Of a DNA stretch of 64,000 nucleotides, positions 1,665 to 63,545 are shown in pieces. The position numbers and the translations under genes are program-made. The DNA is from Romanomermis culicivorax. Taxonomy: Eukaryota; Nematoda; Enoplea; Mermithida; Mermithidae. The notes below the pieces were generated by a model. The model was not told the DNA's origin and did not search any database. It saw nothing but the letters and a program-made list of their open reading frames with translations. Where the stretch lies: NCBI GenBank assembly GCA_963922205.1, contig CAWUHX010000311.1, positions 186,001 through 250,000 on the forward strand. Reading direction: 5' to 3'. How positions within the stretch are numbered: position 1 is the stretch's first letter; every line of letters starts with the position of its first letter.

Positions 1665-3130
1665 TGGGCGATTGTGAGTCGATTCTCCGACTGTTCCGAT
1701 CCTCTGAATGTTTCCATTCTTCGACTGTTTCGATTGTTCGACTTCTTCGATTGTCCGACTACATTAATGTCGCGTTTCTTCGACCGTCTCGAGTCTTCGA
1801 CTAACTCGATTCTGCGACTGTATTGTATACTGCATATTTTCTTATATTGGATTCTTTTTGTTTGTTTATTTCGGTTTTTCTTCAATCACAAAGTAGCATA
1901 TTCAGAAGCCACTGTCTTGCTACCGCCACCAGAATAAAAATACGTGCCCCACTAAAGCCACCGATTGTTCAGGGACTGTAGCACTACAGCTACCACCAAA
2001 AATTTATGTTCCATTGATAGTTTAGCAGTAATATTCGTGTTTTTTTATTTCCCCTGGTTGACATGAAGGAAAAGATTTGTAAACAAAATAAAGAGAAACA
2101 AAAAACAGATAGACAAATGATACAAATACAACTCAAGAGAAACAGAAAAACATAAAACCACAAAACTAATTGAACGAAAGGACAAAACAATTGAGTAAAC
2201 AAACCAACAAGCAAAAACAGAACAAAATCAAATCAGGGGGAAGAAATGAAGAAAACATATGATGAAAACAGAAAAAAACATGAAAGAAAAAACTAATAAA
2301 GAACAAGTAGCAAAAGCAACAGGCTTGAGGAAGAAGAGGAAGCTAGCTAGAAAAAACCGTGGAAGAACAGATGAATGGGAAGGACAAAAAGATAAATAAA
2401 GAATCTAATCTTATGTCGTATATCTTTCACGTTCATTTTTATCTTGCTTCTTCTTTCTTCCTTTTTTATTGTTACTTTTTCTTTCGTTTTCGTTTTTTCA
2501 TCTTTCTTTTTGCTTATTTTTATAAAAATCTTTCTCCTTCGCTTACAGGTTTGTTAACTAGTTCGTTTTATTTCCTTTATTACTCTATCATTGTTTTCTT
2601 TTGTTTTTCTCAACCTTTTGGTTTTTCGTTGTCTTTGTTTATTTGCTCATTGGTTCTCTTTCGCTTTAAACATGCTTGTTTTTCTTCCGTCTTAATAATA
2701 AAATATAAAGGCTAAAGCTATCAACTAAAACAAAAATATATTGGTGGCTAAAGCGAGAGAGTGGCTGTAGCGAGACATCTGCTGAATAATTGGTGGCTGT
2801 AATGGGACACCAATTTTCTCTTGGTGGCTGTAGCGAGACAGTGGCTGTAGTAGCACAGTACATATCATCAGTTCTATTCATATGTTAATTAAGTTGCGTT
2901 TTAATATATTGTGAGACCGCCTAAAAATATATTATACCATAGTCGGACAATGGGAACAGTCGAAGAATCGCAACATGAAAACAAAATCACAGTCGAAGAA
3001 AGGAAACAGTCGAACAACAGTCGAAGAATCAAGGCGTACGGAGAAACGAAACAGTCGGAGAATCGGCGTGTCCACAATACAGCGAAACCCACAATAGCGA
3101 AACTCAAAATAGCGAGACTCAAAACAGCGT
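1665..3130. repeat. Foldback-like imperfect palindrome with satellite arms
   Basis: The outer left arm (about 1665-1860) is a degenerate run of TTCGACTGTTTCGATTG-type units; the outer right arm (about 2930-3130) is the inverse, CGAAACAGTCGAAGAATC-type units. Inside these, 1905-1995 (GCCACTGTCTTGCTACC) mirrors 2735-2870 (GGTGGCTGTAGCGAGACAG). The core changes from purine-rich (2050-2390) to pyrimidine-rich (2430-2700), roughly symmetric about 2400. Long inverted repeats built of short tandem units are the hallmark of foldback elements; no TSD was located. Confidence 0.6.
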
Positions 3131-3245
3131 TTCTCATTACAGCGAAGTCTCAACACAGCCATTCTCATTACAGCTAAGTCTCAATAGAGCGATTCTCGAT
3201 ACAGCGAAATCTCAATACGGCGATTCTCAAAAGAGCGAATACTAA
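3060..3245. repeat. Degenerate satellite, AGCGAAACTCAA/AGCGATTCTCAA units
   Basis: Irregular 10-20-bp units of the type AATACAGCGATTCTCA. The same family recurs at 16795-16905 (inside the TRAK gene) and at 63305-63545, so it is a dispersed minisatellite. It merges on its left with the palindrome arm. Confidence 0.75.
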
Positions 3246-5459: not shown

Positions 5460-8400
5460 CTAAGATTAAAAATCAGAAAGCAAAATTGAAAGAAAAAGAA
5501 ATTTCGGAACATTTTTCTATATTCTTTTTTCCCAGAAAAAATGCAATATTCTATATAAAATACAACTTTCAGAAAATCAAAAAGAGTTCATTTCTGGAAC
5601 ATAAAAAATCGTACCCCAATGTAGATCCTCTATGCGAAACGCCGTCGGATGATCGTTTCAATTCCATTCTACTTTCGTTTAACATGGCCGAAATTTCGCC
5701 GTACCGATCACGTAAATCGGACAATTCTTGAGCCAATTCTCGTTGAGTCTCTTGAGCCGCCAACAATGACAAAGTCAATTCTTCATTTTCGGCGGTTAAC
5801 TAAAAATTTAAAATTTATAACCGAAAAACGAAAAAAATCGAACGAGAAATTTTTACTCTCTTGTTGAGCAAAGCTTTCTCTAATAATTCTTTTTTCGTTT
5901 GATCCAATTGATCATCTCTGATCGTCATTTGATCTTGATTTGTGGCAAATTTTTGAGTCAATTCTTTCAATTGAGCATTTAGAACGGCTGAAATGTAAAT
6001 GGAAAATGAACAACGAAAATTGACAGTGAACAAAGAATATGGAAAACCGTTTTCGCAAGAAATAATATTGGCAAAAATTATCAAAAATTCAATATGCTCC
6101 GGTCCAATTTTTGTGGTTTTTCCGCCAATAAGTGATCCACATACGTGCAGCGGAACTTCAACAATGGGGGGGGGGGAGTTGCCTGGGGTAATGCGAAAGA
6201 ATTTTGCAGTGGGAGGGTCCTCGGACCTTTCATCGAAGCTGAGTGGACAAAGGAACAAAAAAACGCTTGGCAAGCATGTTTTTCATACAAAATATGCATA
6301 AAAATTATCAAAAAACTGTCCTCCAAAAGTTCACGGGGAGTGTTTAACGATTCTTTTTGGACTAGACAAGGATATCCTCCAGGGTCTCAGGTAAGAGGGT
6401 TTACAACCATCCGACCCACCCCACCCATGTGCATATATGGTCGGTGTCATTGAAGGGAGGAAATATCGATTTTTGGCGTGAAAATTTGAAAACATATATG
6501 GCCGGTGAAATAAACAGTAATTTTTCTCTGAACTACCATAAAAATACGTGTTTATGGATTGAAACGCAGAAAAAATGGAACTTTTAACCTGTTCAAAATT
6601 CATCATTTTCAACCCAAAAATATTATTTTCGACCGTTTTTTGATTAAAAATGACCATTTTCTAGCCAAACATTGAAAATTTTGAGCTTTGCTTTTTACAA
6701 AATGATTTTCTATCAAAAATGACCTTTTAATCAATTTTTTCTCAAAAATGATCATTTGATTGCAAAAAACTGAAATTTTTTACATTTTGTCCAAAAATGA
6801 CTATTAGCTACCCAAAAAAGACACTTCTGACGGTTTTTCTGAACAACAAACTAGACATTTTGACCGTTTATTATCCAAAAGTGACAACTTTATGCAGAGA
6901 AATAAAAATTTTTGAATCTTTCGCCACAAAAAAGACAATTTTCAACGAAAAATTGTTTTCAGTTTTTTCCATAAAGAGGGCTAGATTATTTCAGCCAACA
7001 GATCAAGTTTTCGACGCTAGTTTTGTTAAAGCTGCTCTTTTCCAATTTTTTCTGAATTCATTTCCATCATAAATAGCATTGAACTTTCAAAATTGCATTC
7101 TTTTTACGTGGAGAAAGTTGCACAAAAGTAGTTTTTTGTCGGAAAGATTTTCGGAAATTGAAAAAAATTGGTAAAAAGAGAACATGAATTCAAACGATAT
7201 TTATTGTTTTATTTTTTGTCGTACTCCACATAAGTGGAAAATTTATTGAAAAATGAAATCTTCTGAGAATACGGAACGTTCATGCACGCGATAGCTTCAT
7301 TCAATGAGGGTACTTTCGATGAGATATCGAATGAAACTAAAACATTCAATACGAATGAGAAAGCTGAAAAATATCCTCGAAACTGCAGCTTTCGGTCGCC
7401 TCTTATATTATATATTGGTACAATATAGAAACTTCGACACATTCCCTTTCTCTTCATTTCTTATATTTCATTTATCGGTTTCTATAAAATTTATTGACTT
7501 ATTGTCCAAAGGATATAAATTTCCAGAGAAATACGATCTTTGTATAATGGTGACATAATTCTTAAATTTACGAATTTTGAAGAACTTCGAGCAGCGAGTT
7601 CTCGCAATTTATACGCCTATGTTATAATGTACAAAGAAAATGTTCGAAGCAGGCTTTACTTGTTTGTTTAGCAAAATCTCGAGTCAATTGTTGCTCTTTG
7701 TCGTGCAAACATTCGGCTAGATACTTTAAGTGATTCACCTGAAAATGAAAAATTTGGGTCTGAATGGAAACCAAGCGTGAAAAGTAAATAAACGTGAAGC
7801 TATATGTCGAAGGTGCGACGCTGAATTCGTGAAGAAAACGATTCTGAAAATTTTTCCTGTAGAAATTCTATCGGCCTGATATTTTGTAAAAATTAAGTGG
7901 TGGTAATCAAAAACAATTTAATGAATGACCAAAAAAGGAAAAATGGACATCTTTTATCGTGAACAATTTTAATCCAAAATTGAAACTTTTAACAGATATC
8001 AGTCAAGTAACATTTTGTACCAAAAAAATTAAATTTTTAGCCGTTTTTTCCTAAAATAACATTTTTCTACTAAAAAAATTAAAATTTTTAACCGTTTTTG
8101 TTTTGGAATGACTATTTTATTGAACAAAATTGAAATTTCAGACAGTTTTCCCTAGAAAAACATTTCATAAAAGAATTACATGTTGAAGCTATTTTATTCT
8201 AAACTGACAACTTTCTACCAAAAAATACACATTTTCGACCTTGTTTCTTCAAAAATTATTATTTTGTACCTAAAAATATAAATTTTCGACCGTTGTTCGT
8301 TCTGAAATGACTATTTTAAATCTAAAAATTGACACTAATGACCGTTTTTGTTCAAAAATGAAAATTTTTTACCTCTAAATTTTTTTTACCTATTTTTAAG

Positions 8401-11400
8401 TTTTCGTCCGTTTCTTGTCAAAAACTATCATTATATACCATACAACGTTCACATGAGGATACCCCATAATGTAGCACGTAACTTCTCAGCATAACGGGGC
8501 CCTGAGGTCTGGGGGGGGGAGATCGATCGACTTTTTTAGGGCTGGAGGTCACTAATTCCCTACATTTCGGCGGGAGGGGTATCTGAAGGAAAAAAATTTG
8601 ATTGTTTCACCAAAAAAGCCCGAAAAGCTGTTCAAAAAATAGAACTTCTTGTGTAAAAAACTTTAAAAACGTATTACTGGTGTGGAGCGTTGAGAAAATT
8701 GATATTTTTGACCATTTTTAGTTCAAAAATTGACATTTTTCAGTATTTTTCCAACCAAAATTATGGGGTCCCCATGACTACCATATGGCTAGCCATAGGA
8801 TTGGAAAATCCTGGGGGGTCGCCCAATGGCTAGCCATATGGCCGAAGGTTTCTAGGGGGAGAGAGGGTTCGTATAGCACTTACCCCCAATCATACATCCC
8901 CGAGGTCTGGGGGGTGAGCTGAGCGACTTTTTTGAGGCTGGGGGTCAGTAATTCCCAAAATTTTAGGGGGAGGGGTCTCTCAAGGAAAAAAATCGATTTT
9001 TTACGGAAAAAACCGAAAAAAGGTTCAAAAAATAGTAATTTTTTCCTAAAAAGATGGAAAAATGTATTCATGGCGCGAAGCGCCAAAAAAAATTCACATT
9101 TTTTACCATTTTTTGTTCAAAAATTGACATTTTTCATGAAAAAATTGACATTTTTCAGTATTTTTCCGACCAAAAGTATGGGGGTCCCTACAGCTACCAT
9201 ATAGCTAGCCATTGGATTGGAAAATCCTGGGGCCGATCGCCCAATGGCTAGCCATATGGTCGACGATTTCTGGGGGGTTCCCATAGCACTTCCCCCCCCA
9301 ATTACATGTATATGTTTTATACCAAAAAATTAAAACTTTTGACCGTTTGTAGTTCAAAAATGATAATTTTCCTACAAAAATAATGACATTTCTAATCGTT
9401 CTTTGATCAATAATAATCATTTTACACCAAAAAAAGACATTTTGATCGTTTTTTGTTTCAAAATGACCGTTTTCCAACCGTAAAACTGACACTTTTGACT
9501 GTTCTTTTTCCAAAAATGACAATTTTATACGAAAAATTGACATTTTTTAGTTTTTGTAGATGAAAGTTTAAAATGGCAAATTTTTTTCATTTAGTTGAAT
9601 ATTTCATATTACTTCTAACTTGAGACCGGCGTTTTCTTCTTCCAAAGCTGTCAATTTTCTTTCCAACGAATTGAGCGTGTTAATTTTTCTGTCGGATCTA
9701 AAAACCCCACGAAAAAACCAAACTTTTTTAGTTATAATTTTCTAGAAGTCAATTTTTCAACATATTCAATGGTAAATTTCCAAAATCGATTCATAGAAAA
9801 TTTCGCATCAGTTTAGTTGGTTGGAATATGAAAATTTTCCTTTTCCGGAACTTACGACGGCGTCGAAGAATTGCTACCGGCGGGAGAAGACGGCGGAAAA
9901 TCGGCGGTGCATTGATTTTCTTGCGTCCAACGTTTCAAAATTTCCATTTTTTGTTGTAATTCGTGTTTCAATTGTACTAATTCTTCGTTGACGACGGAAA
10001 TTTGATTTTCCAAATGATCGTTGACGTTTTGCAATTGTTGATTTCTTTCGAGCAAACACTTGCCGATTCTGGCCGCCAATTGGAGATCTTTATCTTTCTA
10101 AATATTAAAGGTTACAAACGGTTCCGATTTTTTTTAATAATAGTTTTGGTTCTAAAACTTTTGAAATATAGGTTCCGCTGCTAATAATTAGGAACTTCAC
10201 GGTTACGCATACATACACATAGGAGGGGCTAAACCCATTACCTGAAAAATCGTCAAACACCCCTCTGAACTTTTTCAAGACAGCTTTTTTTTATGATTTT
10301 TGTGCATATTTTGTATGAAAAACAGCTTTGCAGAACTTTTTCCGTTTTTTTGCTCGCCTACCCCCCGCCCCCTATCGTCCTGGATAGGAAGTCCGAGGAG
10401 CTTACCCCCCCGCAAAATTCTCGCCGTGCACGTCTGCGACTACGGTTCCGTTTACATTTCTTTTACGAAGTAGTAAGTTGATGTTTTACACTAAAAGTAC
10501 TCTGCGTTGATACCACTGCTTAATCTGATAGAGTGTGNNNNNNNNNNNNNNNNNNNNNNNNNNNNNNNNNNNNNNNNNNNNNNNNNNNNNNNNNNNNNNN
10601 NNNNNNNNNNNNNNNNNNNNNNNNNNNNNNNNNNNNNGTCCAGAATGGGAAACTCCGCCTTTACTCGAACGCCATTGGCCGAATTTTCTGAAGGAGGTGC
10701 GTCGAAAGTAGGCGTGGCGGCTAAATGGCGCCAATGAGCCAACGTTTCTGAGCCTTGCAAACGGTTTTTAAAAAGTAACAATTTTTTACTATTATGCCCC
10801 GCGAAATGAGGTAAATATGAGCAAGTTTGTCGACGTATTACTGTAACTTCCGAACTCCGCTTCCTTTCCGTTTTGAAATTTTGATAATCGTTCTCGACCT
10901 TTTTACGTAAAGATAACCGTTTCAAGGCATTATCCAAATCTTTGAACCCGGAACTCCAGGAACGCCCATTTCTGGACTATTTTTCAATATTAAATGCTCA
11001 GTAACGACTATCAATTCCGTATCCTGCAGATTATTTAACGTACTATCGATATTGTTATCTAATTTGCATAAATTTGCATATTGCGTCGAGGTAGTAGAAG
11101 CTTCGCCGCAGTCGTGATTATCAAAAATGAGTTGAGAAATCTTGTCATTTGGTTTACGAGGAATAATGTTATGTCGTGGGCTGTTTGAGGAGAAAAAAAC
11201 TATCGTATCCCTGATCACTTTGATTAAAAGTAGCATCTTCGATTTCAGAGGCCAAAACAATCGCCAGCAAAGCCGGGCGAATAGAATCTAAGATTAAAAA
11301 TCAGAAAGCAAAATTGAAAGAAAAAGAAATTTCGGAACATTTTTCTATATTCTTTTTTCCCAGAAAAAATGCAATATTCTATATAAAATACAACTTTCAG

Positions 11401-14400
11401 AAAATCAAAAAGAGTTCATTTCTGGAACATAAAAAATCGTACCCCAATGTAGATCCTCTATGCGAAACGCCGTCGGATGATCGTTTCAATTCCATTCTAC
11501 TTTCGTTTAACATGGCCGAAATTTCGCCGTACCGATCACGTAAATCGGACAATTCTTGAGCCAATTCTCGTTGAGTCTCTTGAGCCGCCAACAATGACAA
11601 AGTCAATTCTTCATTTTCGGCGGTTAACTAAAAATTTAAAATTTATAACCGAAAAAACGAAAAAAATCGAACGAGAAATTTTTACTCTCTTGTTGAGCAA
11701 AGCTTTCTCTAATAATTCTTTTTTCGTTTGATCCAATTGATCATCTCTGATCGTCATTTGATCTTGATTTGTGGCAAATTTTTGAGTCAATTCTTTCAAT
11801 TGAGCATTTAGAACGGCTGAAATGTAAATGGAAAATGAACAACGAAAATTGACAGTGAACAAAGAATATGGAAAACCGTTTTCGCAAGAAATAATATTGG
11901 CAAAAATTATCAAAAATTCAATATGCTCCGGTCCAATTTTTGTGGTTTTTCCGCCAATAAGTGATCCACATACGTGCAGCGGAACTTCAACAATGGGGGG
12001 GGGGGGAGTTGCCTGGGGTAATGCGAAAGAATTTTGCAGTGGGAGGGTCCTCGGACCTTTCATCGAAGCTGAGTGGACAAAGGAACAAAAAAAACGCTTG
12101 GCAAGCATGTTTTTCATACAAAATATGCATAAAAATTATCAAAAAACTGTCCTCCAAAAGTTCACGGGGAGTGTTTAACGATTCTTTTTGGACTAGACAA
12201 GGATATCCTCCAGGGTCTCAGGTAAGAGGGTTTACAACCATCCGACCCACCCCACCCATGTGCATATATGGTCGGTGTCATTGAAGGGAGGAAATATCGA
12301 TTTTTGGCGTGAAAATTTGAAAACATATATGGCCGGTGAAATAAACAGTAATTTTTCTCTGAACTACCATAAAAATACGTGTTTATGGATTGAAACGCAG
12401 AAAAAATGGAACTTTTAACCTGTTCAAAATTCATCATTTTCAACCCAAAAATATTATTTTCGACCGTTTTTTGATTAAAAATGACCATTTTCTAGCCAAA
12501 CATTGAAAATTTTGAGCTTTGCTTTTTACAAAATGATTTTCTATCAAAAATGACCTTTTAATCAATTTTTTCTCAAAAATGATCATTTGATTGCAAAAAA
12601 ACTGAAATTTTTTACATTTTGTCCAAAAATGACTATTAGCTACCCAAAAAAGACACTTCTGACGGTTTTTCTGAACAACAAACTAGACATTTTGACCGTT
12701 TATTATCCAAAAGTGACAACTTTATGCAGAGAAATAAAAATTTTTGAATCTTTCGCCACAAAAAAGACAATTTTCAACGAAAAATTGTTTTCAGTTTTTT
12801 TCCATAAAGAGGGCTAGATTATTTCAGCCAACAGATCAAGTTTTCGACGCTAGTTTTGTTAAAGCTGCTCTTTTCCAATTTTTTCTGAATTCATTTCCAT
12901 CATAAATAGCATTGAACTTTCAAAATTGCATTCTTTTTACGTGGAGAAAGTTGCACAAAAGTAGTTTTTTGTCGGAAAGATTTTCGGAAATTGAAAAAAA
13001 TTGGTAAAAAGAGAACATGAATTCAAACGATATTTATTGTTTTATTTTTTGTCGTACTCCACATAAGTGGAAAATTTATTGAAAAATGAAATCTTCTGAG
13101 AATACGGAACGTTCATGCACGCGATAGCTTCATTCAATGAGGGTACTTTCGATGAGATATCGAATGAAACTAAAACATTCAATACGAATGAGAAAGCTGA
13201 AAAATATCCTCGAAACTGCAGCTTTCGGTCGCCTCTTATATTATATATTGGTACAATATAGAAACTTCGACACATTCCCTTTCTCTTCATTTCTTATATT
13301 TCATTTATCGGTTTCTATAAAATTTATTGACTTATTGTCCAAAGGATATAAATTTCCAGAGAAATACGATCTTTGTATAATGGTGACATAATTCTTAAAT
13401 TTACGAATTTTGAAGAACTTCGAGCAGCGAGTTCTCGCAATTTATACGCCTATGTTATAATGTACAAAGAAAATGTTCGAAGCAGGCTTTACTTGTTTGT
13501 TTAGCAAAATCTCGAGTCAATTGTTGCTCTTTGTCGTGCAAACATTCGGCTAGATACTTTAAGTGATTCACCTGAAAATGAAAAATTTGGGTCTGAATGG
13601 AAACCAAGCGTGAAAAGTAAATAAACGTGAAGCTATATGTCGAAGGTGCGACGCTGAATTCGTGAAGAAAACGATTCTGAAAATTTTTCCTGTAGAAATT
13701 CTATCGGCCTGATATTTTGTAAAAATTAAGTGGTGGTAATCAAAAACAATTTAATGAATGACCAAAAAAGGAAAAATGGACATCTTTTATCGTGAACAAT
13801 TTTAATCCAAAATTGAAACTTTTAACAGATATCAGTCAAGTAACATTTTGTACCAAAAAAATTAAATTTTTAGCCGTTTTTTCCTAAAATAACATTTTTC
13901 TACTAAAAAAATTAAAATTTTTAACCGTTTTTGTTTTGGAATGACTATTTTATTGAACAAAATTGAAATTTCAGACAGTTTTCCCTAGAAAAACATTTCA
14001 TAAAAGAATTACATGTTGAAGCTATTTTATTCTAAACTGACAACTTTCTACCAAAAAATACACATTTTCGACCTTGTTTCTTCAAAAATTATTATTTTGT
14101 ACCTAAAAATATAAATTTTCGACCGTTGTTCGTTCTGAAATGACTATTTTAAATCTAAAAATTGACACTAATGACCGTTTTTGTTCAAAAATGAAAATTT
14201 TTTACCTCTAAATTTTTTTTACCTATTTTTAAGTTTTCGTCCGTTTCTTGTCAAAAACTATCATTATATACCATACAACGTTCACATGAGGATACCCCAT
14301 AATGTAGCACGTAACTTCTCAGCATAACGGGGCCCTGAGGTCTGGGGGGGGGAGATCGATCGACTTTTTTAGGGCTGGAGGTCACTAATTCCCTACATTT

Positions 14401-17400
14401 CGGCGGGAGGGGTATCTGAAGGAAAAAAATTTGATTGTTTCACCAAAAAAGCCCGAAAAGCTGTTCAAAAAATAGAACTTCTTGTGTAAAAAACTTTAAA
14501 AACGTATTACTGGTGTGGAGCGTTGAGAAAATTGATATTTTTGACCATTTTTAGTTCAAAAATTGACATTTTTCAGTATTTTTCCAACCAAAATTATGGG
14601 GTCCCCATGACTACCATATGGCTAGCCATAGGATTGGAAAATCCTGGGGGGTCGCCCAATGGCTAGCCATATGGCCGAAGGTTTCTAGGGGGAGAGAGGG
14701 TTCGTATAGCACTTACCCCCAATCATACATCCCCGAGGTCTGGGGGGTGAGCTGAGCGACTTTTTTGAGGCTGGGGGTCAGTAATTCCCAAAATTTTAGG
14801 GGGAGGGGTCTCTCAAGGAAAAAAATCGATTTTTTTACGGAAAAAACCGAAAAAAGGTTCAAAAAATAGTAATTTTTTCCTAAAAAGATGGAAAAATGTA
14901 TTCATGGCGCGAAGCGCCAAAAAAAATTCACATTTTTTACCATTTTTTGTTCAAAAATTGACATTTTTCATGAAAAAATTGACATTTTTCAGTATTTTTC
15001 CGACCAAAAGTATGGGGGGTCCCTACAGCTACCATATAGCTAGCCATTGGATTGGAAAATCCTGGGGCCGATCGCCCAATGGCTAGCCATATGGTCGACG
15101 ATTTCTGGGGGGTTCCCATAGCACTTCCCCCCCCCCAATTACATGTATATGTTTTATACCAAAAAATTAAAACTTTTGACCGTTTGTAGTTCAAAAATGA
15201 TAATTTTCCTACAAAAATAATGACATTTCTAATCGTTCTTTGATCAATAATAATCATTTTACACCAAAAAAAGACATTTTGATCGTTTTTTTGTTTCAAA
15301 ATGACCGTTTTCCAACCGTAAAACTGACACTTTTGACTGTTCTTTTTCCAAAAATGACAATTTTATACGAAAAATTGACATTTTTTAGTTTTTGTAGATG
15401 AAAGTTTAAAATGGCAAATTTTTTTCATTTAGTTGAATATTTCATATTACTTCTAACTTGAGACCGGCGTTTTCTTCTTCCAAAGCTGTCAATTTTCTTT
15501 CCAACGAATTGAGCGTGTTAATTTTTCTGTCGGATCTAAAAACCCCACGAAAAAACCAAACTTTTTTAGTTATAATTTTCTAGAAGTCAATTTTTCAACA
15601 TATTCAATGGTAAATTTCCAAAATCGATTCATAGAAAATTTCGCATCAGTTTAGTTGGTTGGAATATGAAAATTTTCCTTTTCCGGAACTTACGACGGCG
15701 TCGAAGAATTGCTACCGGCGGGAGAAGACGGCGGAAAATCGGCGGTGCATTGATTTTCTTGCGTCCAACGTTTCAAAATTTCCATTTTTTGTTGTAATTC
15801 GTGTTTCAATTGTACTAATTCTTCGTTGACGACGGAAATTTGATTTTCCAAATGATCGTTGACGTTTTGCAATTGTTGATTTCTTTCGAGCAAACACTTG
15901 CCGATTCTGGCCGCCAATTGGAGATCTTTATCTTTCTAAATATTAAAGGTTACAAACGGTTCCGATTTTTTTTAATAATAGTTTTGGTTCTAAAACTTTT
16001 GAAATATAGGTTCCGCTGCTAATAATTAGGAACTTCACGGTTACGCATACATACACATAGGAGGGGCTAAACCCATTACCTGAAAAATCGTCAAACACCC
16101 CTCTGAACTTTTTCAAGACAGCTTTTTTTTTATGATTTTTGTGCATATTTTGTATGAAAAACAGCTTTGCAGAACTTTTTCCGTTTTTTTGCTCGCCTAC
16201 CCCCCGCCCCCTATCGTCCTGGATAGGAAGTCCGAGGAGCTTACCCCCCCGCAAAATTCTCGCCGTGCACGTCTGCGACTACGGTTCCGTTTACATTTCT
16301 TTTACGAAGTAGTAAGTTGATGTTTTACACTAAAATACTGTACATGACTATGTTCATGTGTTCAAAGTTATCCAAATTGAAATTTTTGGACATTTGTTGT
16401 ATGAAATGAGGATATGCAACCGGCTCTTTTGGAATATAGATCCCGCTTTCGATTCCAGTACTAAAATTTTTGGAATACTGGTTCCGATTCTTCTCAGTTC
16501 GGCAAACTGAGATTTTTAGAGATTTATATATAAAATGTGCAACGGCTCAATTTTTTTGGGGGATATCGATCATGGCTCTAGAATTTTTGGAATACCAGCC
16601 GGTTTGAAAATTTCAAGTTATCTTGTTCCGGTCAACCGTGGCACCTCTATCAAATACAGGTAACATGATTTTAGTATCGTTGTCATTAAGATTTTAGCTC
16701 CAAAAATATGATTCTTAAAAAATTAAATGCAAAAAGAATGAGAAATAAACGAAAACGAAAAAAATTAGTGAGAAAACGTTACTGATCTCAAAAGAGTGAA
16801 TCCCAATCACCAGAAGGGTGGATCTCGCAAAGAACGATTTTCAAAAAAGTGAATCTGCAAAAAAAACGATTCTCAAAAGAGCGATTCTCCAAACAGCGAA
16901 ATATAGCTGAAGCATACATGTAACAGAGCCCCGAGGTCTGGGTTCAGCGACTTTTTTTGGGGCCGAGGATCGTCGATTTACCAAAATTTTAGGAGAGGGG
17001 TCCCTGAAGAAAAAAAATTCGAATTTTTCGCCAAAAAAGTCCGAAAAATAGTATTTTTGTCTTAAAAAACCGTTGAAAATGTATTCATGGCCCGAAGCGT
17101 CGAGAAAATTGACATTTTTGACTATGTTTAGTTCAGAAATTGGCATTTTCTATCAGAAAAATTGTCAATTTTAGTGTTTTTCTAACCAAAAGTATGGGGG
17201 TCCCTATGGCTACAATATGGTTAGCCATAAGAGGGGCTCTCAAGGCACTTTCTCCCGATTACATGTATGACCTGAAGTGTTCCATGTTATATAATGAAAA
17301 ACAAATTCAATGAAATTTTTATACAAACGAAAAATTAAAAAAAATCAACTATTTCTATTATTAAAAGTGATCACTTATCGTAAAAAACATCATGTTTGTA

Positions 17401-26460: not shown

Positions 26461-27160
26461 ATTTAGACATAAGAAAATATAAATTCAAACTGTTTATAGT
26501 CCAAAAATTTTATTTCAAATATTGAAAAATTTTCTTGAAATTTCTGATTCTTTGAAAATATAGAATGCTTCAGTCACTTGGACATTATATAGCTCCTTCA
26601 CTTGTCCAAGATTAAAGTAAAACATTTGTTTCAAATAATGAGCGTATACCAAATGCGGAATAATCTGTAAAAATAATCTGTCCCGAGCCATCACACTCTG
26701 TTACATAATGTCGAATAAACAATGAAACATTCATTCACATCAAAAATATTCAATAAGTTAGTTCAAAAGTGATCATTAGGGAAGGAAAAAATCCAGGGAA
26801 TTTTCTATGTAAAATTTCGAAAAAATTGAATGTAAAATGCTAAAAACTGTTTTCACTTCACACATTCAAATTGCAGGTTTTTGGAGTATTTTTACAAGAC
26901 AAAATGTTCAAAGCCGAAGTAAGAACCGCACAATATCCCCAGAAAACTAGGATTTAGATTCTTCAATTTTCGGTGCAACGGTTTCGGTTAAAAAGAATAA
27001 CTCACTCGGTTTCCAAATGTTCACAGTTCATAAGTCTCCTGCAAGTATGATTAATTATTTTATGGACGACAAAAATCTCAATATGCACAAAAATGCGTGA
27101 ATAAAACGACTACGTACATTTCTAGAGGAAGGTTATAATAGGAAAATGGACTAATTTTAA
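26461..27160. other. AT-rich intergenic DNA, nothing recognised
   Basis: No coding frame, splice pattern or repeat boundary that I could support. Confidence 0.4.
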
Positions 27161-27611
27161 CAATACGGTAAGTAACCAAAATTGCCTGAAGTTGTGTTTT
27201 CCTTGTTGGTGGTTGCTCAAAAGTACAGAATTAGTTTGGTTTTTAGGGCGGTCGGAGTGGAATGGTGAATGGCGAGGTCAAAAAGGTGCATCTTTGGTCT
27301 CAAATAAAAACGTATTATTCGTGTATATAAATGAGAATAAACCAAATTTCTTGGATTTGATTGTGTTTGAGGTTGTATTATGCATTTCAAGTGCTTAGGC
27401 TTAGGCTTAGGCTTAGTCAAAAACTTGATATATTTTGGTAGGAAGGTATGATTACTGTAATTTCCATGAAAAATTTTCAATTTTTTTTTTAAGTTTTTTT
27501 TTTTTGGAAATTACTGTTTTTCGCCCCTTTTTTCCAAAATTTTTTTAAAGTTTTTGATTTGAAACATTGAAAAATGGGGGTTTTTGGTAAAAAGTCGAAC
27601 TTACCGTATTG
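27161..27611. mobile_element. TIR element (CAATACGGTAAG) with internal TTAGGC repeats
   Basis: A 451-bp segment with perfect 12-bp inverted ends CAATACGGTAAG / CTTACCGTATTG. TAA occurs on both sides (27158-27160, 27612-27614), compatible with the 3-bp TWA duplications of PIF/Harbinger. At 27395-27416 it carries 3.7 copies of TTAGGC. No transposase frame. Confidence 0.7.
27395..27416 (+). repeat. Interstitial telomeric repeat, (TTAGGC) about 3.7 copies
   Basis: Perfect tandem TTAGGC, the nematode telomere hexamer, at the centre of the inverted-repeat element 27161-27611. Confidence 0.85.
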
Positions 27612-29386
27612 TAAATTCCTGCCGGAAAATGAAAAAGGTTCAAGGCAAACACCAGAGTAATAATTATTTTCTCAATCAGGGTTGCTTAAACCTTTTACAA
27701 TTGTGTAGTCAGAAGTCACTGTGGCTAACGCAGGTTTACTCATTTATTTTATGAAATTTTTGGCCAGAAACCGACTTTTGAGATTAGAGAAAGAGATATC
27801 AGGCACTTCCAGTGGTAGAAATTGTAACAAAAATTGATTGCTTCTGGTTTTTAGCAACGTGCAGATTGCAGAGCCTAGAATTCTCCTGGGGTTTACTCAG
27901 AAAAATGCGTTTTTTGACCAGAAAATGGACCGAAAACGTCTATATGATCAATGAATTTTCGGTTTGAAATTGATATTGAGCATTACTACGGCGCAGAGCA
28001 CTCAAATTCTTTCGCTTATTGACCGATTTTTCCTCCAAAAAAGTCATGGGCGTAGCGACATGGGGTGCAGTGGGTGCAATTGCACCTCATAGGCTGAATG
28101 AAATTCTTGAAAAAATCATCATTTTTTATATTTATGTGATGTATAATGTTAGAACTTAGAAACCAAAAAGAACAAAATTCAAGATAGGTAGCCTACGTCA
28201 GGCTTCTTTTGCACATGGCAATGAAATTTCGGGCTATGCGACCGAATTTTTTCTGTCGTGTTGCACAGTGCAATTTCAAGCCTGACTGCCCTTTTGATTA
28301 GGAGATAGGGTTTTCTGCCCGGAGATGCATTTTTATGCGCTATAAAATGCTAAATAGTGAAAATTTTTAGGCGCTTCGCACCGTATTTCAATTTATTTAT
28401 AATTTTTCATTATTATTCTAGTGCACGGTTAGAAAATGTCATTCTAGCTAATGCTTATGGCTTTTAATTATCAACATATTATGGATAAATGTGTGATGCT
28501 CTTTTGTTTTTTTATGAATTTGACGGAAAGCAAGATTTTTCTCGGTTATTTTCGCAACATCCTTTTGTGATCTTTGAAAAAATTTTGACTTTTGTGTGAT
28601 TAAAGCATTGTCAATCTAAGTAGAAATTCTTGTAAGCTGAAAAATTAAACTTGTTTGGTTGCTTGCCTACTTTTTAAATTGTAGTTTGCCCCACTGAAAA
28701 TTCATTGAATTCACTGAAGAATTAAATCTTCTGTCTAAGAAATAAAAGTTCAGGGTTTTAGAATACTAAAATCCAAAAAAAAATTTTTGGCGCTAGGCGC
28801 CGAACAAGTTACTCATACCAATCTTTACATTTTCTCTCCAAAACTCAGAGGATTGGGTTTTAAGAGCCTGAAACCGACGCGAATCGAATGAAATACGACA
28901 AACCTAGCTTTTGATGGTTTTGTTTTGATAAAATTAGGCGAATATGTTGATTTTAGAGTGAGCAACCAAAAATTTATCTGTGCAAACCATATTTTTTCCA
29001 AGTGCACTTTGAAACTTGGCCTGTACAAAAAGCCCTACCCTACGTTACTGTGCTAGCTCGGTCGGATATTTTGTGAAAAAAGAAAATCAATGACAACAAA
29101 GCGAGTGTCAAATCTTTCCTTTATTTCATACTATTTCAAGGAAACCAATAAGATTGATTCTTCTGATATATTGAACATTCTTGCAGAAGTGTGTCGTCGC
29201 AATGAACTGAAATAAAACATTGTAAATTATTATCTTATTTATTGTGATACAACAGCTCAAGTGCCGCCTTATTTACTTGAGAGTTTGTTGCAACAATTGC
29301 TGCTATGTATGTAATTAGTAAAAAATTTTCAGTGCACTTCATAGAAAGAAATCCTGGCTACAGCTATGAAAAAAGTCATTTTTGAC
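27612..29386. other. AT-rich DNA with possible decayed transposon
   Basis: CATGGGCGTAGCGACATGGGG at about 28046 faces a weakly similar inverse at about 29037-29058, and hairpin GGCGCTAGGCGCC sits at 28789-28801. These may mark an old 1-kb element, but ends and duplication are not convincing. No gene seen. Confidence 0.3.
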
Positions 29387-56030: not shown

Positions 56031-56470
56031 GACGAAACATTGTCTCTTCAATTTTTAACATATATTTGTTCAAGTGAAATACCTACAACTCTTTGTATGC
56101 TCAACCTTCATGAAGACAAATATTTGGGAACATACGTACTACAAACATTTGAGTTAGAATTCTGACAACATAAGGAATATGATTTGCCAGAAAGCATTTT
56201 TGAAAGTTTTATCTAAATCCTTTTAGCACTAATGGTGATTTCTAGGAATTCATAGGCAGAGTAATGAGTGATGTGTTTATAGGATTTAGAGAAAACAAAA
56301 TTGCAGAATTTGTATGGCATGTTGAATAATATTTTTTCATACAAAATTAGAGTTGTGTATGTCCTATTTTAGAAAAATACGCGGATTAACCATGAACATA
56401 AAAAAAGGAAATGCAGACCTCATTAAAAATTTTACCTCGAGTTCCTAGAGATAAACCCAAGCTTGAACCC
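56031..56470. other. AT-rich DNA, no gene seen
   Basis: Nothing recognisable between the small TIR element and the telomeric array. Confidence 0.4.
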
Positions 56471-56478
56471 AAGCTTGA

Positions 56479-56690
56479 ACCTAAGCCTAAGCCTAAGCCT
56501 AAGCCTAAGCCTAAGCCTAAGCCTAAGTCTAAGCCTAAGCCTAAGCCTAAGCCTAAGCCTAAGCCTAAGCCTAAGCCTAAGCCTAAGCCTAAGCCTAAGC
56601 CTAAGCCTAAGCCTAAGCCTAAGCCTAAGCCTAAGCCTAAGCCTAAGCCTAAGCCTAAGCCTAAGCCCAAGCCTAAGCCTAAGCCTGAAG
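56479..56690 (-). repeat. Interstitial telomeric array, about 35 GCCTAA units
   Basis: Near-perfect tandem GCCTAA/TTAGGC, with rare variants (TAAGTC, TAAGCC-C). It is entered through AAGCTTGAACCC-type degenerate units on the left. It continues after a MITE at 56932-56962 (TAAGCCTAAGCCTAAGAC). Confidence 0.92.
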
Positions 56691-56931
56691 GGACATTTAT
56701 ACTTGCCTTTTTCGGCGGAACGGAAAGGAACCGATGGCCAACAGCTTGAAAAATTCAGCCTGAAAATCCACTTTCCATCGGAGAGGGTAACTGCAATTTT
56801 CTAAGAAATGAGCGATGGTAACCCTAAACCGAACCAAACGGAACGAAAATTTCTTTTTCGTTCAGAAACGTTGTGTCGATTTTTTTCCGTTCCGTTCCGT
56901 TTTGCCGAAGAAGGCAAGTATAAATGACCCT
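56689..56931. mobile_element. MITE inserted in the telomeric array
   Basis: A 243-bp element with inverted ends AGGGACATTTATACTTGCC and, inverted on the right, AGGGTCATTTATACTTGCC. The flanks are TGA (56686-56688) and TAA (56932-56934), both within GCCTAA units. The ends resemble those of the TAA-flanked element at 46031. Confidence 0.75.
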
Positions 56932-56962
56932 TAAGCCTAAGCCTAAGACTAAGCTTAAGGCT

Positions 56963-57836: not shown

Positions 57837-59894
57837 TATCTTGATCCTTTTCAAGATGATGCGATTTTGATTTTTTTTCAAGATTATCTTGAAAGCGATG
57901 CACTTGAAAAGAAAGTCGAAGATACCGAAAAACTTTTACATCTTGATTTATTGGAATGCATCTTGAAAAAATGTTCGAAGGAAGTAGTTCGTAAAAAAAA
58001 TTTTCAATTCGTAACGATTTCCTTCAAGTGGCCGTTTAGAATGCCATTTCTACAGTATTCACAAAGAAGCTATTGTAAACATTTCTGGTCGAGAAAAATT
58101 GTTTGATCAACACAGATAGGCAATGAAGCTTTTGAGCTTAAAGAAATTGTGGAATTCAGAATTTGATTTTACAAAAATTTGATTTTACAACTTTTACATC
58201 TGTGTGATATCAAATTTAGTCAAACTTCAACTATGCCTAACTCAATCAAAAATGTGAATATATCGTTTTAAATTACATTTTTTAATATATCTCAACAAGA
58301 TCTATCGATTGATACCTAGTTTATTATGTTTCGGGATGGAAAAATTCATGCTCGTCTGCAGTAGGGACTCTGAATCTTCTCAAAGTTTTGTGTCCAATTA
58401 TTTAATTTGAACATGAGAAATTTTTGACTTTCAACTTTATTCATAAAATGAGCTGACGTCGCATCTCTTCACATTGAGAATGTGTGACAAACAATGTGGC
58501 AAACTGTACGAAAAAATCTTCCTTCATTTGATTGCCACCATTCATCATTGACGACATTTCAACTATCATGTTTATTATCAAAAAATCTTTCCGCAATATC
58601 ACGTATGCAAAATTTTGATGAATATACGACTAATAAATCATTTTTGACATTTGATTAGTTCATGTTCAGATGTTCTTAATTTCTGGACATAATTGACCCT
58701 AGTTTCGTACAAGATGAAGATTATTTTTTGTTGAGTATCAGTTTACCTTAGAGTCGGATTTTCTTCCTAAAGGTCATTTAGAACAATCAAGACACGTGTT
58801 AGATTGAGCTGAGCATTTTTCTACTGTAACAATAATGTTAGCTTAAATTTTCGGTTCTTCTGTCGGGGTCTCCTGCAAGTATACTGTAACTCATTTAAAA
58901 TCTTACTGAAAATCTAATTCATGCTGCAACTTCAAAACAATGTTACGCCAGAAATATTTCTTTTGAATGTGTGGGTAACTGTAGCCAAGTTTAAATTTTT
59001 CAAAAATCTATTCTTGCCATGTTTTGTTTAGCACTCTGCTTAGGTCTGACGACGTCAGCAATATAACTAAAGAGGTCTATTGGCTTGTACCAAACTAGCT
59101 TGTACCAAACTGTAGCTCCATATGGGCTTCCTATTGGTAAAGGCTGATACAGTGCAACAGTTCTCTAGCAGAACTAAACATAACTTTCAGTCACTGATTA
59201 AGCTAAGCTACAGTAACTGGAATCCAACAAAAGCTTGCAATCGGAAAGCATGCAGGGTTTCCCAAACTTCTTCCTGCATGCTCCTACTTTGAACTAGAAA
59301 CTCACTATGCTCGACTTCCGTGAGTGATAAGGTCCTCCAAGGGTAATTCCAACGGCCCACATCAGCTCCCACTTCCACTTATAAGGCAAGCGATAAATAA
59401 TAAAATAATAATATCTAAATGGGTGAACGTGCACACAACTAAAACCAATGTGTGAAAGAAGAATAAATCACAACCAATCTTTCTTCCAAAGTTGGCGTCC
59501 TTCTGTCCGCACAATTTTGCATTGATGGGATGACTGCTACCATAAGCACATCACAAACAGCCATCAAAATTAATTGTATATTGCAGAATAGAAATTTCGC
59601 AGTTTCAGTTTTCTGGGAGGGAGTTGGAGTAATGAGCTCAGTGGAAAATGTAATGGAGACGAAGTTTACTGTAACTTCATGTTTTTCGCACCACATGTCA
59701 AAGGAATCGAAAACTTTTGCAGATGACTAAATTAAGCTTGAATACCTATGATTAAGAATTATAAAACTTTACAGCAAAATATTGGTGTTAACTGACAATT
59801 TTCAAGTTGATGCAAGTTTTGGAAATTTCTTCCAAAATTATTTTAAACAAGATAGTTTTTTGTGTAAATAACTTGGAAAACTATATTTGCTACC
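57837..59894. other. AT-rich intergenic DNA, possible isolated exon only
   Basis: 57867-58106 has an open frame after a TTTTTTTTCAAG acceptor-like site, with a charged helical stretch (DYLESDALEKKVEDTEKLL). No partner exons were found. The rest shows no gene. Confidence 0.35.
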
Positions 59895-60115
59895 CATGAC
59901 CCGACAATTGAGCGCCGACAATTGAGCGGCGACAACTGAGCGCCGACAACTGAGCGCCAACTATTTAATGGCTTAGGCTTAGGCTTAGGCTTAGGCTTAG
60001 GCTTAGGCTTAGGCTTAAAAAACGCTCAATTATAATGCATTAAATAGTCGGCGCTCAAATGTCTGGCACTCAGTTGTCGGCGCTCAATTGTCCGGCGCTC
60101 AGTTGTTGGTAAACC
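59895..60115. mobile_element. Small foldback element with TTAGGC core and 10-bp TSD
   Basis: A 221-bp element flanked by identical ATTTGCTACC (59885-59894 and 60116-60125). The left arm is four 14-bp units of the type GCGCCGACAACTGA; the right arm holds four inverse units (TCAGTTGTCGGCGC). Next to the core, CTATTTAATG faces CATTAAATAG. The core is seven perfect TTAGGC units. Tandem-unit arms and a 9-10-bp duplication fit foldback or Mutator-like elements. Confidence 0.82.
59973..60014 (+). repeat. Interstitial telomeric repeat, seven TTAGGC units
   Basis: Perfect tandem TTAGGC in the loop of the foldback element 59895-60115. Confidence 0.92.
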
Positions 60116-60125
60116 ATTTGCTACC

Positions 60126-63304: not shown

Positions 63305-63545
63305 ACTATTCACACAACAGCGAAACTCAAAATAGCGAGACTCAATACAGTGATTCTCAATTCAGCGAAGTCTCAATACAGTGATGTTTCAAAACAGCGA
63401 TTCTCAATTCAGCGAAGTCTTGATACAGCGATTCTCAAAACAGTGAAGTCCCAAAACATCGATTCTCAATACTGCGAAATCTCAAAAGAGTGATTCTTAA
63501 TTCAGCGAAGTCTCAATACAGCGATTTTCAAAACAGCGAATTTTC
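63305..63545. repeat. AGCGAAACTCAA satellite
   Basis: About 14 loose units of 15-20 bp (CAGCGATTCTCAA, CAGCGAAGTCTCAATA). Same family as 3060-3245 and 16795-16905. Confidence 0.8.

Follow-up and report, generated by a model that had tools for sequence, protein, structure and literature searches.

How does a run of TTAGGC, the repeat that caps most nematode chromosomes (PMC9071541), come to lie at the centre of a small palindromic element in the mermithid nematode Romanomermis culicivorax, and is that element mobile? The locus in question occupies 221 bp, at 59895-60115, of a 64,000-nucleotide stretch of contig C311 (positions 186001-250000), hereafter called the window. A first-pass annotation had offered two readings, a mobile carrier of telomere seeds or a foldback element that had captured telomere DNA. 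Our analysis indicates that it is very probably a small member of a foldback transposon family, non-autonomous and most likely of the Mutator type (Mutator-like elements, MULEs), that has captured telomeric repeats and spread them through the genome of R. culicivorax.

The evidence for mobility comes from the whole genome (359,112,060 bases in 595 contigs; the published long-read assembly is given as 359.1 Mb in 595 scaffolds, PMC10879605). A search with the window element as query returned 375 matches, a figure that is not a copy number, and 40 of the 461 first-look candidates were scored. With two further loci recovered by a TTAGGC pattern search (L034 and L057), 42 distinct places were processed, and 40 of these carry a left arm, a TTAGGC array and a right arm, the exceptions being L079, which has no left arm, and L080, which has no array. 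The locus is thus one of many and not the unique one that the annotation had allowed for. Eleven of the loci L001-L030 (L015-L022, L025, L028 and L030) were left out before counting, as they overlap other loci that represent them. L024, a local duplicate of L023, was excluded from the 39 copies used for termini and target duplications and included in the 40 used for the count of internal types. Three pairs that look like duplicated insertion sites (L068/L070, L008/L012 and L023/L069) were kept, so that the 39 copies correspond to about 36 sites.

The left end begins with C[A/G]TG in all 39 copies, while the right end reads GGTGCACC in 21, GGTTAACC in nine and variants of these in the remaining nine. 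Where the termini place the target duplication, the 9-bp flanks are identical in 23 copies and differ by no more than one base in 27, compared with 3/1482 in a control that paired left flanks with right flanks of other copies. When a freedom of ±2 bp was granted, exact duplications of 8-10 bp were present in 29/39 copies vs. 5/1482 in the control, and the prediction of duplicated flanks, on which the annotation had staked the family, is borne out. The duplication usually measures 9 bp in the family, and 10 bp in the window copy and L023. The number of arm units varies between ends and between copies, elements measure 221-1346 bp, and their arrays 12-821 bp (median 150 bp). The window element belongs to a mobile family, with defined termini and duplication size, whose core is inherited through transposition.

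The anatomy of the window copy is given in Table 1. It fills exactly the space between two perfect copies of a 10-mer that occurs nowhere else in the window. These direct repeats, the inner stem and the seven perfect TTAGGC units were described correctly in the annotation. Its inverted arms of 14-bp units were also recovered, with four units on each side, except that only the left-arm units keep a 14-nt phase, the right-arm units being spaced by a mixture of 14 and 15 nt, and that an additional inner unit, which had gone unmentioned, gives the right side one unit more than the left inside the stem. The two 8-nt ends are asymmetric, and the outermost CATGAC and TAAACC remain unpaired in the fold; inside these outer 6 nt, the arms are identical at 63/72 positions.

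Table 1. Features of the foldback element and of one further TTAGGC-bearing repeat, in window coordinates.
Feature	Position	Strand	Basis or remark
Repeat of ~470 bp, inverted ends of 17 nt (TTTTAACAATACGGTAAGT type)	27151..27623	+	boundaries approximate
Target site duplication, left copy ATTTGCTACC	59885..59894	+	exact repeat; two occurrences in total in the window
Left terminal motif CATGACCC	59895..59902	+	fold; outermost 6 nt outside the inverted repeat
Left arm, 14-nt unit GACAAYTGAGCGCC four times in tandem	59903..59956	+	units in 14-nt phase
Inner stem, left half CTATTTAATG	59961..59970	+	adjoins the array
Telomere-type array, 8 perfect GGCTTA units	59970..60017	+	8.0 units according to Tandem Repeats Finder (TRF)
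Seven perfect TTAGGC units inside the array	59973..60014	+	
Extra inner arm unit, CGCTCAATTATA on the + strand	60023..60034	-	right side only
Inner stem, right half CATTAAATAG	60038..60047	+	
Right arm, four units, 14/15-nt spacing	60052..60107	-	
Right terminal motif GGTAAACC	60108..60115	+	family mostly GGTGCACC or GGTTAACC
Target site duplication, right copy ATTTGCTACC	60116..60125	+	exact repeat

The whole element folds into one hairpin of -77.6 kcal/mol (shuffle mean -30.6), whose loop is (TTAGGC)7, with a DNA fold z-score of -14.65 and none of 200 shuffles as good. It contains 34 shared inverted 10-mers, as against 0 or 1 at those remaining TTAGGC tracts of the window that were tested, and at least 10 such 10-mers were met at 54/5000 random places. 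Among 200,000 random pairs of points at this spacing, 886 had an identical directly repeated 10-mer within ±8 bp of the two points. Taken alone, the 10-bp duplication at the window locus is thus not overwhelming, and the case for mobility is made by the copies across the genome.

On the basis of their interiors, the 40 copies were divided into types A (25, L024 included), B (7) and C (8, three of them assigned by the left junction only). Full-length copies (type A) are composed of a left arm, a ~56-bp spacer, (TTAGGC)n, a ~143-bp spacer and a right arm, with exceptions that include L076 (left gap of 704 bp) and L074 (right gap of 170 bp). The array starts at CCGTG/GCTTAGGC and ends at TTAGGC/CTCAGTAAATG in type B; in type C it starts at TTTAATG/GCTTAGG and, in five copies, ends at GGCTTA/AAAAACGCTC. 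The window copy is of type C, lacks both spacers and is the shortest of the 39. Types B and C look like A with spacer sequence missing as far as the array, or almost as far, and may be deletion derivatives of A. The array has the same orientation in 40/40 copies, as judged by at least one junction, and together with the right inner segment it forms the sole interior part common to the three types. Copies of the ~143-bp spacer differ from their consensus by 0.7% in the median (range 0-4.5%; 23 type-A copies, duplicates included), and this low divergence indicates that type A spread recently.

The closest known relative in design is Tm1, a Mutator/Foldback family of root-knot nematodes (Meloidogyne), one putative autonomous copy of which encodes a MULE transposase resembling the Phantom subclass (PMC3169594). 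Both families have inverted arms of tandem ~14-nt units in variable number, asymmetric 7-nt termini outside the inverted repeat, target duplications of 8-10 bp (mostly 9 bp) and one additional arm unit on the inner side, and the copies of both are mostly non-autonomous. The ends of Tm1 carry the motifs A1 (CGGTTAA) and A2 (CCTACCC) and motif C (CGATTCAGTATCGC) (PMC3169594). When the first 21-24 nt were aligned and significance was estimated by letter shuffling, the left end of the R. culicivorax family matched Tm1 A2+B+C with p of 0.001 or less, and its GGTTAACC right end matched A1+B+C with p = 0.0015. The anatomy thus resembles that of Tm1 and, less firmly, so do the end sequences. The two families differ in the sequence of the arm unit and in the commoner right end, GGTGCACC, which is not close to that of Tm1, as well as in the host, Meloidogyne being a distant nematode. 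They differ also in their cores, which in Tm1 are histone-hairpin, MITE-like (miniature inverted-repeat transposable element) or transposase-coding, and the string "telomer" does not occur in the main text of the Tm1 report (PMC3169594).

Galileo, a foldback element of Drosophila, belongs to another superfamily. The arm units may serve, as cited for Galileo (PMC4079207), as putative transposase binding sites, and a MULE transposase supplied in trans would recognize the ends and the tandem ~14-nt units, insertion being accompanied by duplication of about 9 bp of the target. Such enzymes could be provided by the host, whose genome gave 122 matches to MULE domains at E ≤0.001 (150 of 248 candidates scored). 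The TTAGGC array was probably gained mid-element by an ancestor, through repair of an internal break by telomerase or with captured telomeric DNA. Transposition, as the dispersed copies attest, carried it to many places, and its lengths of 12 to 821 bp suggest expansion and contraction through slippage or unequal exchange.

Several observations weigh against this interpretation. No exact duplication (8-10 bp, ±2 bp freedom) was present in 10/39 copies, and array-less copies were under-sampled, since the query itself contained the array. The resemblance to Tm1 is uneven: the match of the commoner right end is weak (p = 0.0165), p values run from 0.014 to 0.067 when the left end is set against A1 and the right against A2, the 7-nt end motifs alone, in the pairs expected to match, give 0.04 to 0.47, and the arm unit gives 0.05 when kept in phase, or 0.38 when every rotation is allowed. 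An autonomous element bearing these arms did not emerge, one MULE frame having been examined; this frame, near copy L061, sits outside the target duplication of that copy and is not surrounded by arm units. As regards TTAGGC as the telomeric repeat of R. culicivorax, an array was found at 0/16 contig ends examined (outer 300 bp each). Seven of these 16 ends (L089, L090, L092, L096, L097, L099 and L100) carry AAGCAGTGGTATCAACGCAGAGTAC, which we take to be a SMART-type library adapter and hence assembly contamination at contig ends.

Tracts of TTAGGC are not confined to this family. Overlapping matches to (TTAGGC)6 number 22,615 genome-wide (control pattern, 5), and the first places listed yielded 12 distinct tracts on contigs C1-C4, each with six or more perfect units, a small sample from one end of the contig list. 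Three of the 12 (L033, L034 and L057) lie in the family of the window element and three (L053, L056 and L081) in two other inverted-end families, whereas L031, L035, L042 and L082 were placed in no family. L053 is a copy of the repeat near 27 kb in the window (Table 1), which holds a short TTAGGC tract at 27395-27418; the tract of L053 is longer, its flanks match those of the window tract (99% over 133 bp and 95% over 192 bp), and the two share 17-nt inverted ends (E = 0.004). L056 (C3:2465226) and L081 (C4:862506), which share 91% identity over 412 bp, represent a third element of about 370-400 bp with TTAGGC inside and inverted ends of 30-32 nt (GGCACTACTTAAAAGAACGG..ACAGCACTT). Shared ends, without target duplications, suggest that these two families are mobile as well. 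L083 and L084 (94.7% identity over 1.76 kb, 15 kb apart) are probably a local duplication.

That three families hold such tracts bears on how the cores arose. Instead of a single ancestral capture, telomerase, or telomeric DNA captured by end joining, may have built them repeatedly, each type or family descending from a broken transposon that was bridged by TTAGGC and then multiplied; we regard this as possible but less likely than not. The three types of the window family differ in both array junctions, with the array occupying the place of the missing sequence, the 27k/L053 and L056/L081 families contain TTAGGC tracts of their own, and a telomerase-linked insertion at breaks has been argued for in mammals (PMC2246262). 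Against it, types A, B and C share one array direction, which simple trimming of a single ancestral core would also produce, and within a type the junctions are inherited, because they are common to copies at different sites. A wider version holds that telomerase or captured telomeric DNA patches broken DNA transposons again and again, that at least three unrelated families gained their cores in this manner and are, through their transposition, a main source of interstitial tracts, and that the core may be of use in docking or as a telomere seed; as a whole we consider it doubtful. Transposition of mobile elements has been named in a review as a possible mechanism for interstitial telomeric tracts (PMC6410037), and young transposons with a telomere-type core may help to explain the internal scatter of chromosome-end repeats in nematodes. 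Given defined ends, target duplications, young copies and sampled tracts that fall within families, transposon-borne tracts could be counted in any nematode assembly.

A function of the array, whether in docking of telomere proteins, as a seed for telomere addition or in repair resembling alternative lengthening of telomeres (ALT), is an unlikely reason for its retention. The idea would fit the interior shared by types A, B and C, which is limited to the array and the right inner segment, and the use of interstitial tracts as templates in telomerase mutants of Caenorhabditis elegans (PMC9071541). However, the window core has only eight units, and the fraction of perfect units in the cores ranges from 100% down to about 39%, so some cores are decaying. 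No link to chromosome ends emerged from the contig ends described above, which allow little test of one. A palindrome formed locally beside an ordinary interstitial tract, an idea that could appeal only to the abundance of TTAGGC tracts outside the family as well as within it, is scarcely credible given that the same termini recur, with target duplications, in dozens of copies whose sites are unrelated, and these copies rule out a chance palindrome or a lone tract.

The novelty of the window element can be delimited against other known systems. Tetris and other Drosophila foldback elements have long arms with internal tandem repeats, a variable middle domain and target duplications of 8-10 bp (PMC4079207), and differ in that the available sections of that paper mention no telomeric core. 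Cg_HINE, a Helentron-type element of oyster, likewise disperses short tandem arrays held centrally, but it is of the rolling-circle type, without foldback arms, and its units are satellite-like, not TTAGGC (PMC7492417). Interstitial telomeric sequences derived from breaks are short telomeric arrays at internal sites and thus a possible origin of the core, but they are described as insertions at single breaks rather than as sequences that such a transposon has multiplied (PMC2246262). Among the matches listed in a search of titles and abstracts, subscription papers and repeat databases being outside its coverage, there was no foldback or inverted-repeat transposon with a telomeric core. The annotation's statement that no such family had been described therefore holds, within those matches, for the core, whereas the chassis is close to Tm1. 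In our view the chassis is of a known kind, the telomeric core is new to us, and what surprises is that such cores recur in other families of the same genome.

Other sequence collections contributed little. Rfam gave no match to the window element at gathering thresholds, the phage collection returned 18 records with a best E-value of 3 (chance level), exact arm patterns were found in none of the viral and GTDB contigs, and a composite query of arm plus array gave no useful match. The translated arm matched two predicted proteins of R. culicivorax, P0009 (E = 3.3e-5) and P0018 (E = 1.3). The latter, an "uncharacterized protein", is read through the array-bearing copy L069 (75/84 ten-residue words), and hence some gene predictions consist of element sequence. 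A metagenome protein from JGI, labelled as pentapeptide repeats (P0007, from a contig of 1058 bases), shares 86% identity over 22 residues with the translated arm, and is perhaps a foldback arm from another organism misread as protein.

The window contains further repeats. A 34-unit TTAGGC tract at 56454-56962 is split by a ~245-bp inverted-repeat element with GGGACATTTATACTTGCC ends, flanked by TTAA on the right and TGAA on the left, which looks like a piggyBac-type MITE inserted in the tract. A foldback-like structure of ~1.4 kb (1679-3065) has arms of tandem ~17-nt units (TCGATTCTCCGACTGTT) and no clear target duplication. Tandem arrays of 15/16-nt units (CTCAATACAGCGATT / CTCAATTCAGCGAAGT) with no obvious inverted partner occur at 3072-3239, 16770-16905 and 63317-63540, and are perhaps detached arms of another foldback family. 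Kinship of the arm unit of the window element with the other 14-17 nt arrays of the window was considered and found not convincing. An apparent local duplication links ~8197-8329 with ~14030-14162, about 5.8 kb apart, and a 100-bp run of N lies at 10538-10637. Finally, 2 kb from the window element, there is a chemoreceptor-like reading frame, 100% identical over 319 residues to an R. culicivorax protein.
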